Shown: positions 36,358 through 39,517 of the stretch, one piece after another | Layout of the letters: every line of letters begins with the position of its first letter | Numbering within the stretch: position 1 is the first letter of the stretch | NCBI RefSeq assembly: GCF_027924405.1 | Contig: NZ_AP026978.1 | Span: 6,510,001-6,574,000, forward strand | Length of the DNA stretch: 64,000 bases | Source: Nocardia sputorum | Lineage (GTDB): Bacteria; Actinomycetota; Actinomycetes; Mycobacteriales; Mycobacteriaceae | Direction: 5' to 3' | The notes under the pieces: model-generated | Databases searched by the model: none | What the model saw: the letters and a program-made list of their open reading frames with translations, nothing else | Told to the model about the DNA's origin: nothing | Made by a program: the position numbers and the translations under genes

Positions 36358-36361
<4 letters not shown>

Positions 36362-37509
36362 GACTGGTACCCCAATCGCTTCGCCGCCAGTCCGGTCAGG
36401 ATCTCGGTCGTGCCGCCGCCGATGCCGAGGATGCGCATATCGCGGTACTGGCGTTCGATCTCGGATTCGCGCATGTAGCCGAGACCGCCGAACAGCTGCA
36501 CGGCCTGGTTGGCCACCCACTCGCCCGCTTCGACGGCGGTGTTCTTGGCGAAGCACACTTCGGCGATCAGGTCGGTCTCGCCTTCGGCGCTGCGCTGCAC
36601 CACGTCGCGGGTGTAGACGCGGGCGACGTCGATGCGCCGCGCCATCTCGGTGACCGTGTTCTGCACCGCCTGCCTGCTGATCAGCGGGCGGCCGAAGGTC
36701 TCGCGGTTGCGCACCCACTCCAGGGTCAGGTCCAGGCAGCGCTGCGCGCTGGAGTACGCCTGCACCGCGAGGCCGACGCGCTCGCTGACGAACGCGCCCG
36801 CGATCTGGAAGAAGCCGGAGTTCTCCGGGCCCACCAGGTTCTCCACCGGCACCCGCACGTCGACGTAGGACAACTCGGCGGTGTCGGAGGCCAGCCAGCC
36901 CATCTTGTCCAGCTTGCGGCTGACCGTGAAACCGGGCGTGTCCTTGTCGACGATGAGCAGCGAGATGCCGCCGGAGCCGGGGCCACCGGTGCGCACCGCG
37001 GTGACCACGAAGTCGGCGCGGACGCCGGAGGTGATGTAGGTCTTGGCCCCGTTGACGATGTAGTGGTCGCCGTCGCGGCGCGCCGTCGTGGTGAGGTGCC
37101 CGACGTCGGAGCCGCCGCCGGGCTCGGTGATCGCGAGCGAGCCGATCTTCTCCCCGGCCAGCGTCGGCTTCACCCAGCGCTCGATCTGCTCGGCGTTACC
37201 CGAGGCGATGATGTGCGGCACCGAGATGCCGCAGGTGAACAGGGAGGCGAACAGCCCGCCGGACGCACCGGCCTGGTGCATCTCCTCGCAGACGATCATC
37301 GCGTCCACGCCGTCGCCGCCGGAGCCGCCCGCGGATTCCGGGAACTGCACGCCCAGCAGACCGAGCGCGCCCGCCTTCTTGTGCAGTTCGCGCGGGATCT
37401 CCCCGGCGCGCTCCCAGCCGTCCAGGTACGGCAGGATCTCGCGTTCCACGAATCCGCGCACCGTGGAACGCAATTCGCGTCGTTCCGGCGTCTCCCAGAG
37501 TTTCGTCAT
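36358..37509 (-). CDS. acyl-CoA dehydrogenase
   Basis: A 383-residue acyl-CoA dehydrogenase. Characteristic segments: LGVQFPESAGGSGGDGVDAM, LAITEPGGGSDVGHLTTTAR and FGGLGYMRESEIERQYRDMR. It probably supplies the enoyl-CoA for the carboxylase (fadE13 position in mycobacteria). I chose ATG 37509, with AAAGGAC upstream. The ATG overlaps the stop of the fourth 25-aa mini-ORF in the tandem repeat, so ribosomes leaving that ORF can restart here. A longer frame to 37602 is open only because the repeat is open in that frame. Confidence 0.92.
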
Positions 37510-37805
37510 GCTGTGTCCTTTCTCGCATGACCGGTGGCCCTGCGTGGTGACGCGAGCTGCCGCCTCCGGGCCTGACCGGTCATACGGTGTCCTTTCTCGC
37601 ATGACCGGTGGCCCTGCGTGGTGACGCGAGCTGCCGCCTCCGGGCCTGACCGGTCATACGGTGTCCTTTCTCGCATGACCGGTGGCCCTGCGTGGTGACG
37701 CGAGCTGCCGCCTCCGGGCCTGACCGGTCATACGGTGTCCTTTCTCGCATGACCGGTGGCCCTGCGTGGTGACGCGAGCTGCCGCCTCCGGGCCTGACCG
37801 GTCAT
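37506..37805 (-). other. chain of four overlapping 25-aa mini-ORFs within the repeat
   Basis: On the minus strand four ORFs run 37805-37728, 37731-37654, 37657-37580 and 37583-37506. Each begins MTGQARRRQLASPRR and ends KDTV (KDTA in the last). Every junction is ATGA, including the entry from the AtuA-like stop codon (37802-37804) and the exit into the acyl-CoA dehydrogenase ATG (37509). An AAAGGA lies 6 bases before each ATG. The peptides are Arg-rich; whether they have a function beyond passing ribosomes along is unknown. Confidence 0.7.
37514..37805 (-). repeat. four tandem copies of a 74-bp unit (MIRU-like)
   Basis: Copies start at 37514, 37588, 37662 and 37736 on the plus strand. The first three are identical over 74 bp; the fourth matches for 70 bp, then enters the AtuA-like gene. 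Each unit holds the palindrome TGACCGGTCA, a ribosome-binding site AAAGGAC, and a 25-codon ORF. The unit length equals 26 codons minus the 4-bp ATGA overlap, so any copy number keeps the chain intact. This is the logic described for mycobacterial interspersed repetitive units. Identity of the copies suggests recent expansion and possible copy-number variation. Confidence 0.97.
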
Positions 37806-39517
37806 GCGAGCAGCTCCACTGGAATGTCGAGGTGACGAGACCGCAGCCATTCGCCGAGTCCCTTGGCCTGCGGATCGAAGCGGGCCTGATAAGCCACGCC
37901 CTGACCGAGCAGACCTTCGATGATGAAGTTCAGCGCCCGCAGATTGGGCAGGACGTGCCGGGTGACGGTCAGCGAAGCCGCTTCCGGCAGTAGTTCTTTG
38001 ACGCGGGCCACGGTGAGCGTGTGCGCCAGCCAGCGCCATTGCTCGTCGGTGCGCACCCACACGCCGATGTTCGCGTCACCGCCTTTGTCACCGCTGCGGG
38101 CCAGCGCGATCGTCCCCAACGGGACGCGGCGCGTGTCCCCGGCCGGCAGGGGCTCCGGGGCGGGCGGCTCCGCGACGTCGGCGAGTTCGGTCGTCTCCGT
38201 GGCCGGCGCGACGTCGACGCGAGTGCCGTCGGGCAGCACCGCCGTGTGCGGAACCTCCGCGGCGTCGACGAAACCGGGCGTGAACACGCCGTAGGGAGAT
38301 CCGTTGCCGGGGAGCGTCGTGAAACTGCATCCCGGATAGCTGGCCAGCGCCAGCTCCACGGCGACGTTGGAGAACGCGCGCCCGACCTTGTTCGGGTCCG
38401 GGTCGCGGACCACGCAGCGCAGCAGCGCGCTGGCCTGCTCCTCGGTCGCCGCGTCCGGCCGATCCAGACGGGCCAGCGTCCAGCTCAGCTCGGCGGGACG
38501 GGTCGGCAGCCAGGACTCCAGCTGGCGTTGCGCGAGTGCGGCTTTGGCCTCGATGTCCAGGCCGGTGAGCACGAACTCCATCTCGTTGCGGAAGCCGCCG
38601 AGCGTGTTCAGCGAGACCTTGAGCCGAGGCGGCGGGGCCTCACCGGTGACGCCGCTGATCCGCACCCGATCGGGACCGTCCTGGTCGAGCCGGATGGTGT
38701 CCAGGCGGGTCGTCACGTCGGGGCCCGCGTAGCGGGGACCCTGGATCTCGTACATCAGCTGGGCCTCGACCGTGTCGACGGTGACCGCGCCGCCGGTGCC
38801 CGCGTGCTTGGTGATGACGCTGCTGCCGTCGGCGCGGATCTCCGCGATCGGGAAGCCCGGCCTGCCCAGATCGGCGAGCTCGGTGAAGAAGGCGTAGTTG
38901 CCGCCGGTGGCCTGGGTGCCGCATTCGATCACGTGCCCCGCCACCACCGCACCGGCCAGCCGGTCGTAATCCTCGCGGTCCCAGCCGAAGTGCGCGGCGG
39001 CCGGGCCGACGATCACCGACGCGTCGGTGACCCGGCCGGTGACCACGATATCCGCGCCCGCGTTCAGGCATTCGACGATGCCCCACGCGCCGAGGTAGGC
39101 GTTGGCGGTCAGCGGCGCGCCGAAGCCGAGTTCACCGGCGCGCGCGAGCAGGTCGTCGCCCTCCACGTGCGCGATCTTCGCGTCCAGTCCGAGATCGGCG
39201 GCCACCTTGCGCAGTTTCCCCGCCAGGCCGGCCGGATTGAGGCCGCCCGCGTTGGCCACGATCCGCACGTTGCGTTCCAGCGCCAGCCCGAGGCAGTCCT
39301 CGATCTGCTTGACGAAGGTCTTGGCGTAGCCGAGGTCCGGGTCCTTCATGCGGTCCCGGCCGAGGATCAGCATGGTGAGTTCGGCGAGATAGTCGCCGGT
39401 GAGGACGTCGAGCTGTCCCCCTTCCAGCATCTCGCGCATGGCGCCGAGCCGATCACCGTAGAAGCCGGAACAGTTGCCGATCCGGAGCACATGCGGGTCG
39501 GCGGCCAGCATACTCAT
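37802..39517 (-). CDS. AtuA-like (DUF1446) acyclic terpene utilisation family protein
   Basis: A 571-residue protein of the DUF1446/AtuA family, first seen in the Pseudomonas acyclic terpene (citronellol) pathway. Characteristic stretches are IGNCSGFYGDRLGAMREML, VTGRVTDASVIVGPAA, YEIQGPRYAGPDVTTRLD and RSGDKGGDANIGVWVR. The catalytic role is not established. It is the first gene of the operon, equal in place to Rv0976c. AGGAGG lies 11 bases before ATG 39517. Its stop codon overlaps the first mini-ORF of the tandem repeat. Confidence 0.88.
   Translation of the reverse strand: MSMLAADPHVLRIGNCSGFYGDRLGAMREMLEGGQLDVLTGDYLAELTMLILGRDRMKDPDLGYAKTFVKQIEDCLGLALERNVRIVANAGGLNPAGLAGKLRKVAADLGLDAKIAHVEGDDLLARAGELGFGAPLTANAYLGAWGIVECLNAGADIVVTGRVTDASVIVGPAAAHFGWDREDYDRLAGAVVAGHVIECGTQATGGNYAFFTELADLGRPGFPIAEIRADGSSVITKHAGTGGAVTVDTVEAQLMYEIQGPRYAGPDVTTRLDTIRLDQDGPDRVRISGVTGEAPPPRLKVSLNTLGGFRNEMEFVLTGLDIEAKAALAQRQLESWLPTRPAELSWTLARLDRPDAATEEQASALLRCVVRDPDPNKVGRAFSNVAVELALASYPGCSFTTLPGNGSPYGVFTPGFVDAAEVPHTAVLPDGTRVDVAPATETTELADVAEPPAPEPLPAGDTRRVPLGTIALARSGDKGGDANIGVWVRTDEQWRWLAHTLTVARVKELLPEAASLTVTRHVLPNLRALNFIIEGLLGQGVAYQARFDPQAKGLGEWLRSRHLDIPVELLA

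Follow-up and report, generated by a model that had tools for sequence, protein, structure and literature searches.

Nocardia genomes carry tens of short hairpin repeats, many of which lie at the stop/start junctions of operons. One array of these repeats separates two genes in the window, that is, the whole stretch of 64,000 nucleotides of Nocardia sputorum DNA that was analysed. On the sequence evidence presented below, we propose that they are translationally transparent hairpin elements, found almost only in Nocardia, that would relay ribosomes at DTGA overlaps, a reading to which we give a probability of about 0.78; the element is also probably mobile. According to the proposed mechanism, a copy sitting in a DTGA overlap would supply the stop of the upstream gene, an open structured core, a Shine-Dalgarno sequence and a downstream DTGA. 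A ribosome finishing the upstream gene would restart on the mini-ORF and open the hairpin by reading through it. A unit length of 2 mod 3 would then lead to a stop and a restart, and a length of 0 mod 3 would let translation continue in frame; since the length is 2 or 0 mod 3, translation is proposed to reach the next gene at any copy number. In other words, the peptide would be a by-product, fold and phase being what is kept.

The preliminary description of this DNA had placed four 74-bp units between an AtuA-like gene and an acyl-CoA dehydrogenase gene, each unit encoding a 25-residue ORF with its own AAAGGA, and ATGA overlaps coupling the series from the AtuA stop to the dehydrogenase start. 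This layout was confirmed. Specifically, Tandem Repeats Finder delimits a repeat at 37505-37805 (period 74, 4.1 copies, 99% matches, score 588) and, read on the minus strand, the gap between the two genes is filled by four 74-bp units at 37510-37805 (Table 1). Nothing in the earlier account was wrong, although it was incomplete: the hairpin was absent from it and was found here by folding and covariation. An ATGA marks every boundary of the array, so that stop/start overlaps run throughout; the first of them contributes its TGA (37804-37802) as the AtuA stop, and the ATG of the dehydrogenase (37509-37507) lies inside the last one. Unit 4 is the same as units 1-3 through its first 71 bases, with mismatches at bases 72 and 74. 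In each unit the AAAGGA stands six bases ahead of the next ATG, and the encoded peptide is MTGQARRRQLASPRRATGHARKDT(V/A) followed by the stop. The longest ORF of the dehydrogenase, at 36358-37602, starts inside the repeat array; automatic annotation may thus misplace the start of this gene, an example of how the mini-ORFs can mislead annotation. A search of Rfam with the window stretch and six other loci gave no family close to the gathering score.

Table 1. Repeat units, mini-ORFs, Shine-Dalgarno sequences, hairpin and neighbouring genes of the array (positions in the window)
Feature	Positions	Strand	Remarks
Repeat unit 1	37732..37805	-	74 bp; AtuA stop codon within its first ATGA
Repeat unit 2	37658..37731	-	74 bp; identical to unit 1
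Repeat unit 3	37584..37657	-	74 bp; identical to unit 1
Repeat unit 4	37510..37583	-	74 bp; 72/74 bases as in unit 1; next comes the ATGA with the dehydrogenase start
Mini-ORF 1	37728..37805	-	25 codons and stop; start in AtuA stop, stop in start of mini-ORF 2
Mini-ORF 2	37654..37731	-	
Mini-ORF 3	37580..37657	-	
Mini-ORF 4	37506..37583	-	stop overlaps dehydrogenase start
AAAGGA Shine-Dalgarno, unit 1	37738..37743	-	from sequence and duplex energies
AAAGGA, unit 2	37664..37669	-	from sequence and duplex energies
AAAGGA, unit 3	37590..37595	-	from sequence and duplex energies
AAAGGA, unit 4	37516..37521	-	placed for the dehydrogenase start; from sequence and duplex energies
Hairpin of unit 1	37744..37810	-	from folding; stem backed by covariation; flank pairing
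Upstream gene, AtuA family (PF07287 and PF23544)	37802..39517	-	571 aa
Downstream gene, acyl-CoA dehydrogenase	36358..37509	-	383 aa from the ATG at 37509

The array is one member of a dispersed family. Queries with the array detect further repeats of this kind in many locations of the 7.43-Mb N. sputorum genome, in which the covariance model R1 finds 52 units at E<=0.001 and 65 at E<=10 when 150 of the 14,871 loose candidates are scored. Matches were also returned by DNA search in 34 of the 36 genomes of the same genus, N. sputorum included, so that the related elements anticipated elsewhere do exist; in five relatives the units at E<=0.01 number 65, 43, 27, 16 and, in genome G111, 107. Four copies of the N. 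sputorum genome (L033, L163, L164 and L166) have the same core outside stop/start overlaps, and their outer arms differ, for example GGCGGCGC with GGGAGCGCCGCC. Outside the genus, the DNA search gave weak matches in 2 of 24 genomes (G037 and G052, both of other families). A scan of the order with R1 yielded 8 of 298 genomes at E<=0.001, namely seven of the same genus and one of another family (G363), and just 1 of the 76 genera other than Nocardia has a match; R1 found none in same-family genomes outside the genus, with 17 candidates scored per genome, a depth at which weak relatives may be missed. The copy in G363 (L185, 1501-1564) likewise lies at an ATGA in which an upstream reading frame stops. 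In the plasmid collection the sole match is a 2.66-Mb Nocardia farcinica record, with 23 places (best 477935-478075), and phages gave no match to a two-unit query. Among the PMC papers listed by a literature search on Nocardia repeats, none describes such elements in this genus in its title or abstract.

The fold of the element is backed by covariation. Unit 1 of the window folds into a 14-bp perfect stem of -44 kcal/mol (z -4.8), whose 5' arm takes in the last five AtuA bases before the ATGA, CTCGC pairing with GCGAG. Covariation was assessed on an alignment, A1, of 62 units (full-length hits, one per locus, identical ones taken once; L145 was omitted for its long internal insert). In its stem, 95.1% of the cells are paired, versus 88.1% when shuffled and at most 47% when slid, and 60 cells carry double changes, versus 8.6 in shuffles, with double changes in 13 of the 19 pairs. 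In 58 loci outside A1, 94% of the cells are paired against 85% shuffled, and 82 cells are doubly changed against 14; this set was aligned to the model and therefore leans towards it, and some of its loci are orthologs of A1 loci. The inner four pairs have no double change in alignments A1 and A2, and hence are not supported by covariation. G-U cells exceed A-C cells by 47 to 10 in the 58 other loci and by 35 to 10 in A1, an excess that favours the sense strand, i.e. the mRNA. This points to a covarying fold that would form in the mRNA, single-stranded DNA of the sense strand being also possible. In repeated arrays, folding indicates that the 3' arm can also pair with the 5' arm of the next unit, with the Shine-Dalgarno sequence in the loop.

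Inside the hairpin, GGAGG and GCGT-N-ACCACG form a nearly invariant core. Subfamilies read it in different frames, as RRRQRSVTTQG, PEAAAQRNHAG or GGGSLRNHVGP, and consequently the peptide is not the conserved object; judged from these nucleotide comparisons, the conserved object is the hairpin. That the Arg-rich 25-mer should be the functional product of a small-peptide family is accordingly very improbable. Such a family would agree with the length of the first mini-ORF, which reaches 18 codons or more in every one of the 105 junction arrays (in L172 only just), as against 26 of the 36 other copies with a start codon; the three readings of the core and the short frames in the remaining 10 of these 36 non-junction copies speak against it. 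Conservation of the peptide as such is ruled out by the different frames in which the core is read, and is strongly disfavoured as an explanation of the repeats.

The participation of the upstream gene in the stem is not peculiar to the window. Compared locus by locus, the 3' arm (TCAY and 3-4 further bases) complements its own site NNNNDTGA. When the 3' arm was located blind to the flank in 71 distinct junctions, and flanks and arms were shuffled among loci as a control, Watson-Crick pairing of host positions -1, -2, -3 and -4 with the four bases that follow the arm was 93, 94, 82 and 52%, respectively, against 71, 84, 50 and 38% in the shuffled sets; no excess was seen at -5 and -6 in the same 71 loci. 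Where the two bases before the DTGA are not GC, positions -1 and -2 both still pair in 16 of 17 loci. At the qcrC-like junction considered below, some species show a complete match between arm and flank, others a mismatch at -2. A rather doubtful possibility is that base pairing with the end of the upstream gene lets the element pick or recognise the place where it inserts, or else that each resident copy is remade to fold with the host gene. If either were true, the end of a protein-coding gene would be part of a guide or regulatory hairpin and, in the case of site choice by pairing, a mobile element would be guided to sites of translational coupling.

The lengths of the repeats follow a phase rule. 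The best-scoring places of the searched genomes provided 180 arrays, which are not a random sample; in 105 of them the upstream gene takes its stop codon from the first DTGA, the upstream coding frame being judged by third-position GC. These 105 junction arrays collapse to 72 distinct loci, and the downstream frame could be set at 64 of them (8 omitted), as well as at 46 of the 65 other, non-junction loci (19 omitted). At the last joint, the 64 distinct junctions comprise 44 of phase 2 (stop/restart), 20 of phase 0 (in frame) and none of phase 1, as against 23, 12 and 11, respectively, of the 46 non-junction copies. For phase 1 (0/64 versus 11/46) Fisher's test gives 3e-5, a probability which, as the arrays are related by descent, is overstated even after the collapse to distinct loci. 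Internal joints of the distinct junction loci obey the same restriction, with 26 of phase 2, 48 of phase 0 and none of phase 1. Before the collapse, the last joints of the 105 junction arrays are 73 coupled, 17 fused in frame and 13 with an 'other' walk, while 1 ran off and 1 had none. One joint of phase 1, of 76 bp, does occur in the junction array L172 (an ortholog of L011), where the mini-ORF is only 18 codons long and ends within the first unit. The chain of coupled 25-residue ORFs emphasised in the preliminary description is thus one of two modes: among 46 distinct multi-unit junction arrays it holds for 18, whereas the other 28 fuse their mini-ORFs in frame; an in-frame period of 75 bp is seen in many sister arrays.

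The strength of the Shine-Dalgarno sequence goes along with the phase. It was called strong when its duplex energy with the 16S tail was -5 kcal/mol or better, and orthologs were not collapsed. Strong sequences occur at 15% of 62 in-frame internal joints versus 83% of 29 stop/restart ones, and at 85% of 73 coupled last joints versus 41% of 17 in-frame ones. In 22 arrays that combine in-frame internal joints with a coupled last joint, the last Shine-Dalgarno sequence is stronger in 19, equal in 2 and weaker in 1. This is the pattern to be expected if ribosomes restarted at only one of the two kinds of joint, in a test that is weakened by the shared descent of linker types. The host bases ahead of the first DTGA also resemble a Shine-Dalgarno sequence, a strong one in 68% of the 105 junction arrays.

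It might be objected that the arrays are neutral tandem duplications without a role, and that the phase rule is a founder effect of 74- and 75-bp units. A few lengths do dominate, since 24 of the 120 joints in the 180 arrays are of 74 bp and 75 of 75 bp. Nevertheless, the periods 71, 72, 74, 75, 77, 78 and 150 that occur are all 0 or 2 mod 3, compared with 2 of 120 joints of 76 bp; moreover, non-junction copies are less restricted at the last joint, and Shine-Dalgarno strength tracks the phase. The objection appears therefore quite improbable. Under the relay reading, nature has provided variants at defined junctions, differing in phase (0 or 2), in the presence of a Shine-Dalgarno sequence, in copy number (from 1 to 5) and in the hairpin; with so many of them at gene junctions, the question of how ribosomes restart, by unfolding of the RNA or by carry-over, becomes directly testable.

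Filled and empty sites can be compared at the junction of the window. The AtuA-dehydrogenase junction is readable in 95 of the 98 genomes of the genus, the exceptions being G009, which has only a 48% relative of AtuA, and G015 and G073, in which the match falls at a contig end. The element is absent from 77 of the 95, 69 of which have an AtuA TGA overlapping the start of the dehydrogenase. The other 18 carry it, with one unit in 15, two in 2 and four in N. sputorum alone, in agreement with the variable copy number foreseen earlier, here as a difference between species. On a quick tree of 94 genomes (1 of the 95 rows, without anchor, was omitted) the junction requires 14 gain or loss steps, of which starred branches force at least 6; with shuffled labels the average is 16.7 changes, so that presence is only weakly clustered on the tree. 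In close relatives the bases before the ATGA are CTCGC or TTCGC at filled sites and CTGTC or CTGAC at most empty ones, and G111 is filled although its flank is TTGTC. Given this difference in the flanks, some of the presence and absence may reflect allele exchange between species, which fits the data of this junction as well as transposition does.

Two decayed copies at the AtuA junction, L131 (G025) and L138 (G093), have no DTGA at the first position, and the AtuA frame runs through the element; these are apparently the 2 of the 18 filled junctions in which the AtuA frame ends at the dehydrogenase start. At the same junction, L085, L105, L106 and L143 (G117, G083, G008 and G028) hold another insert of about 54 bases, which starts with ATGARTTCAGTATCGCG or nearly so, is in frame with the dehydrogenase start and is common to several species; it is perhaps a second repeat family at this place.

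Two other junctions were read in 30 genomes each. At the first, whose downstream gene reads like HemA, the element occurs in N. sputorum alone (1/30, three units); the close relatives G076, G007 and G063 have GGCATGAGCG without interruption, and G013 shows a weak single match 293 bases upstream. At the second, presumably qcrC-qcrA, 8 of the 30 genomes have the element. A ninth genome (G007) has in the same position a sequence, L469, that has lost most of the core, with an ATGA at both ends and an AAAGGA before the last. More generally, unit number differs in 14 of 21 groups of orthologous arrays, in a comparison between species with one genome per species (1 of 22 groups, lying all within one genome, was omitted). 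Loci with such interspecies differences in copy number may serve for the typing of Nocardia.

Patchy presence and many dispersed copies raise the possibility of a purely selfish hairpin, similar to MITEs or REPs, in which the fold would serve mobilisation only, while mini-ORF and Shine-Dalgarno sequence would make insertions harmless. This possibility, to which we give somewhat less than even odds, is compatible with the relay and denies only a role of the fold in cis. It is favoured also by the inverted arms, by the DTGA on either side and by the four copies outside junctions that keep the core. Against it, paired changes are found between orthologs of one locus (in G005, GATCGG/CCGATC versus GACCGG/CCGGTC) and in flank and arm together (G106/G107), both of which gene conversion could also explain; furthermore, the N. 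sputorum genome has no match to the Y1 transposase. REPs lie outside genes and are associated with a Y1 enzyme. The Nocardia element shares with REPs and IS200-IS605 (Y1) elements a short dispersed hairpin beside a fixed tetranucleotide, but many of its copies occupy gene overlaps and contain a reading frame, and the Y1 (HUH) family PF01797, the one family sought as a mobilising enzyme, has 0 matches in the N. sputorum genome and is present in 5 of 14 controls. With MITEs it has in common a short length and inverted ends, and perhaps also a brief duplication of the target, the DTGA; unlike in MITEs, the arm sequences vary while pairing is kept. A longer target duplication was considered and is weak at best: beyond the flanking DTGA, 53 distinct loci match above shuffled only at -3 (36% versus 22%) and +5 (66% versus 49%), and neither position shows an excess in 25 single-unit arrays.

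A close known parallel to the relay proposed here is offered by the MIRUs of mycobacteria. PMC12548453 presents MIRUs as apparently mobile elements whose insertion sites are start codons and whose coupling has a -4 nt spacing, and according to PMC4213456 the senX3-regX3 intergene holds 77- and 53-bp MIRUs. The design is alike: both kinds of repeat insert at DTGA stop/start overlaps, form tandem arrays and bring a small ORF, coupled to the next gene at -4 nt, with bases resembling a Shine-Dalgarno sequence ahead of the 3' DTGA; the Nocardia element is likewise both dispersed and tandem, with a copy number that varies between species. The MIRU-like architecture originally suggested for the window is in this sense well founded, whereas a relation in sequence was not detected. 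Specifically, a 24-base motif located the mycobacterial repeat in at least 117 stretches, 80 loci of which were compared; among the matches listed, 79 of the 80 are titled as mycobacteria, and R1 finds nothing at E<=1 in the 609,388 bases of these loci. Among the same matches, where two copies of the motif lie close together their spacing is 53 bp in 13 of 24 pairs and 52 bp in 6, and most of 30 loci looked at in detail (L309, L315 and L318 excepted) have a DTGA near both ends and GGAGGAG before the next start.

Consequently, it is unlikely that the repeats are true MIRUs that diverged in Nocardia. The layout of DTGA site, mini-ORF and Shine-Dalgarno sequence, the same as in the 53-bp mycobacterial repeats, would be accounted for, but, besides the negative R1 result in the 80 loci, none of the same-family genomes outside the genus matched with 17 candidates scored in each, and length and core differ, the Nocardia unit being of 74/75 bp and the mycobacterial repeat mostly of 53 bp. 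A further difference may lie in the covarying arms that reach into the upstream gene; others are a second, in-frame mode of 75 bp, and the host, Nocardia instead of mycobacteria. We infer that the element would work like a MIRU and is not a MIRU by any detectable sequence relation. It may be regarded as a Nocardia counterpart of these repeats, with a covarying hairpin, a strict phase rule and a putative relay function, which suggests more than one origin for the design of a repeat that enters a stop/start overlap and leaves translation unbroken. Among the mycobacterial copies, the gene after L331 and L335 reads like RegX3, and the array L305 of Mycobacterium sp. E2479 has a 52-bp spacing that breaks the 53-bp coupling phase.
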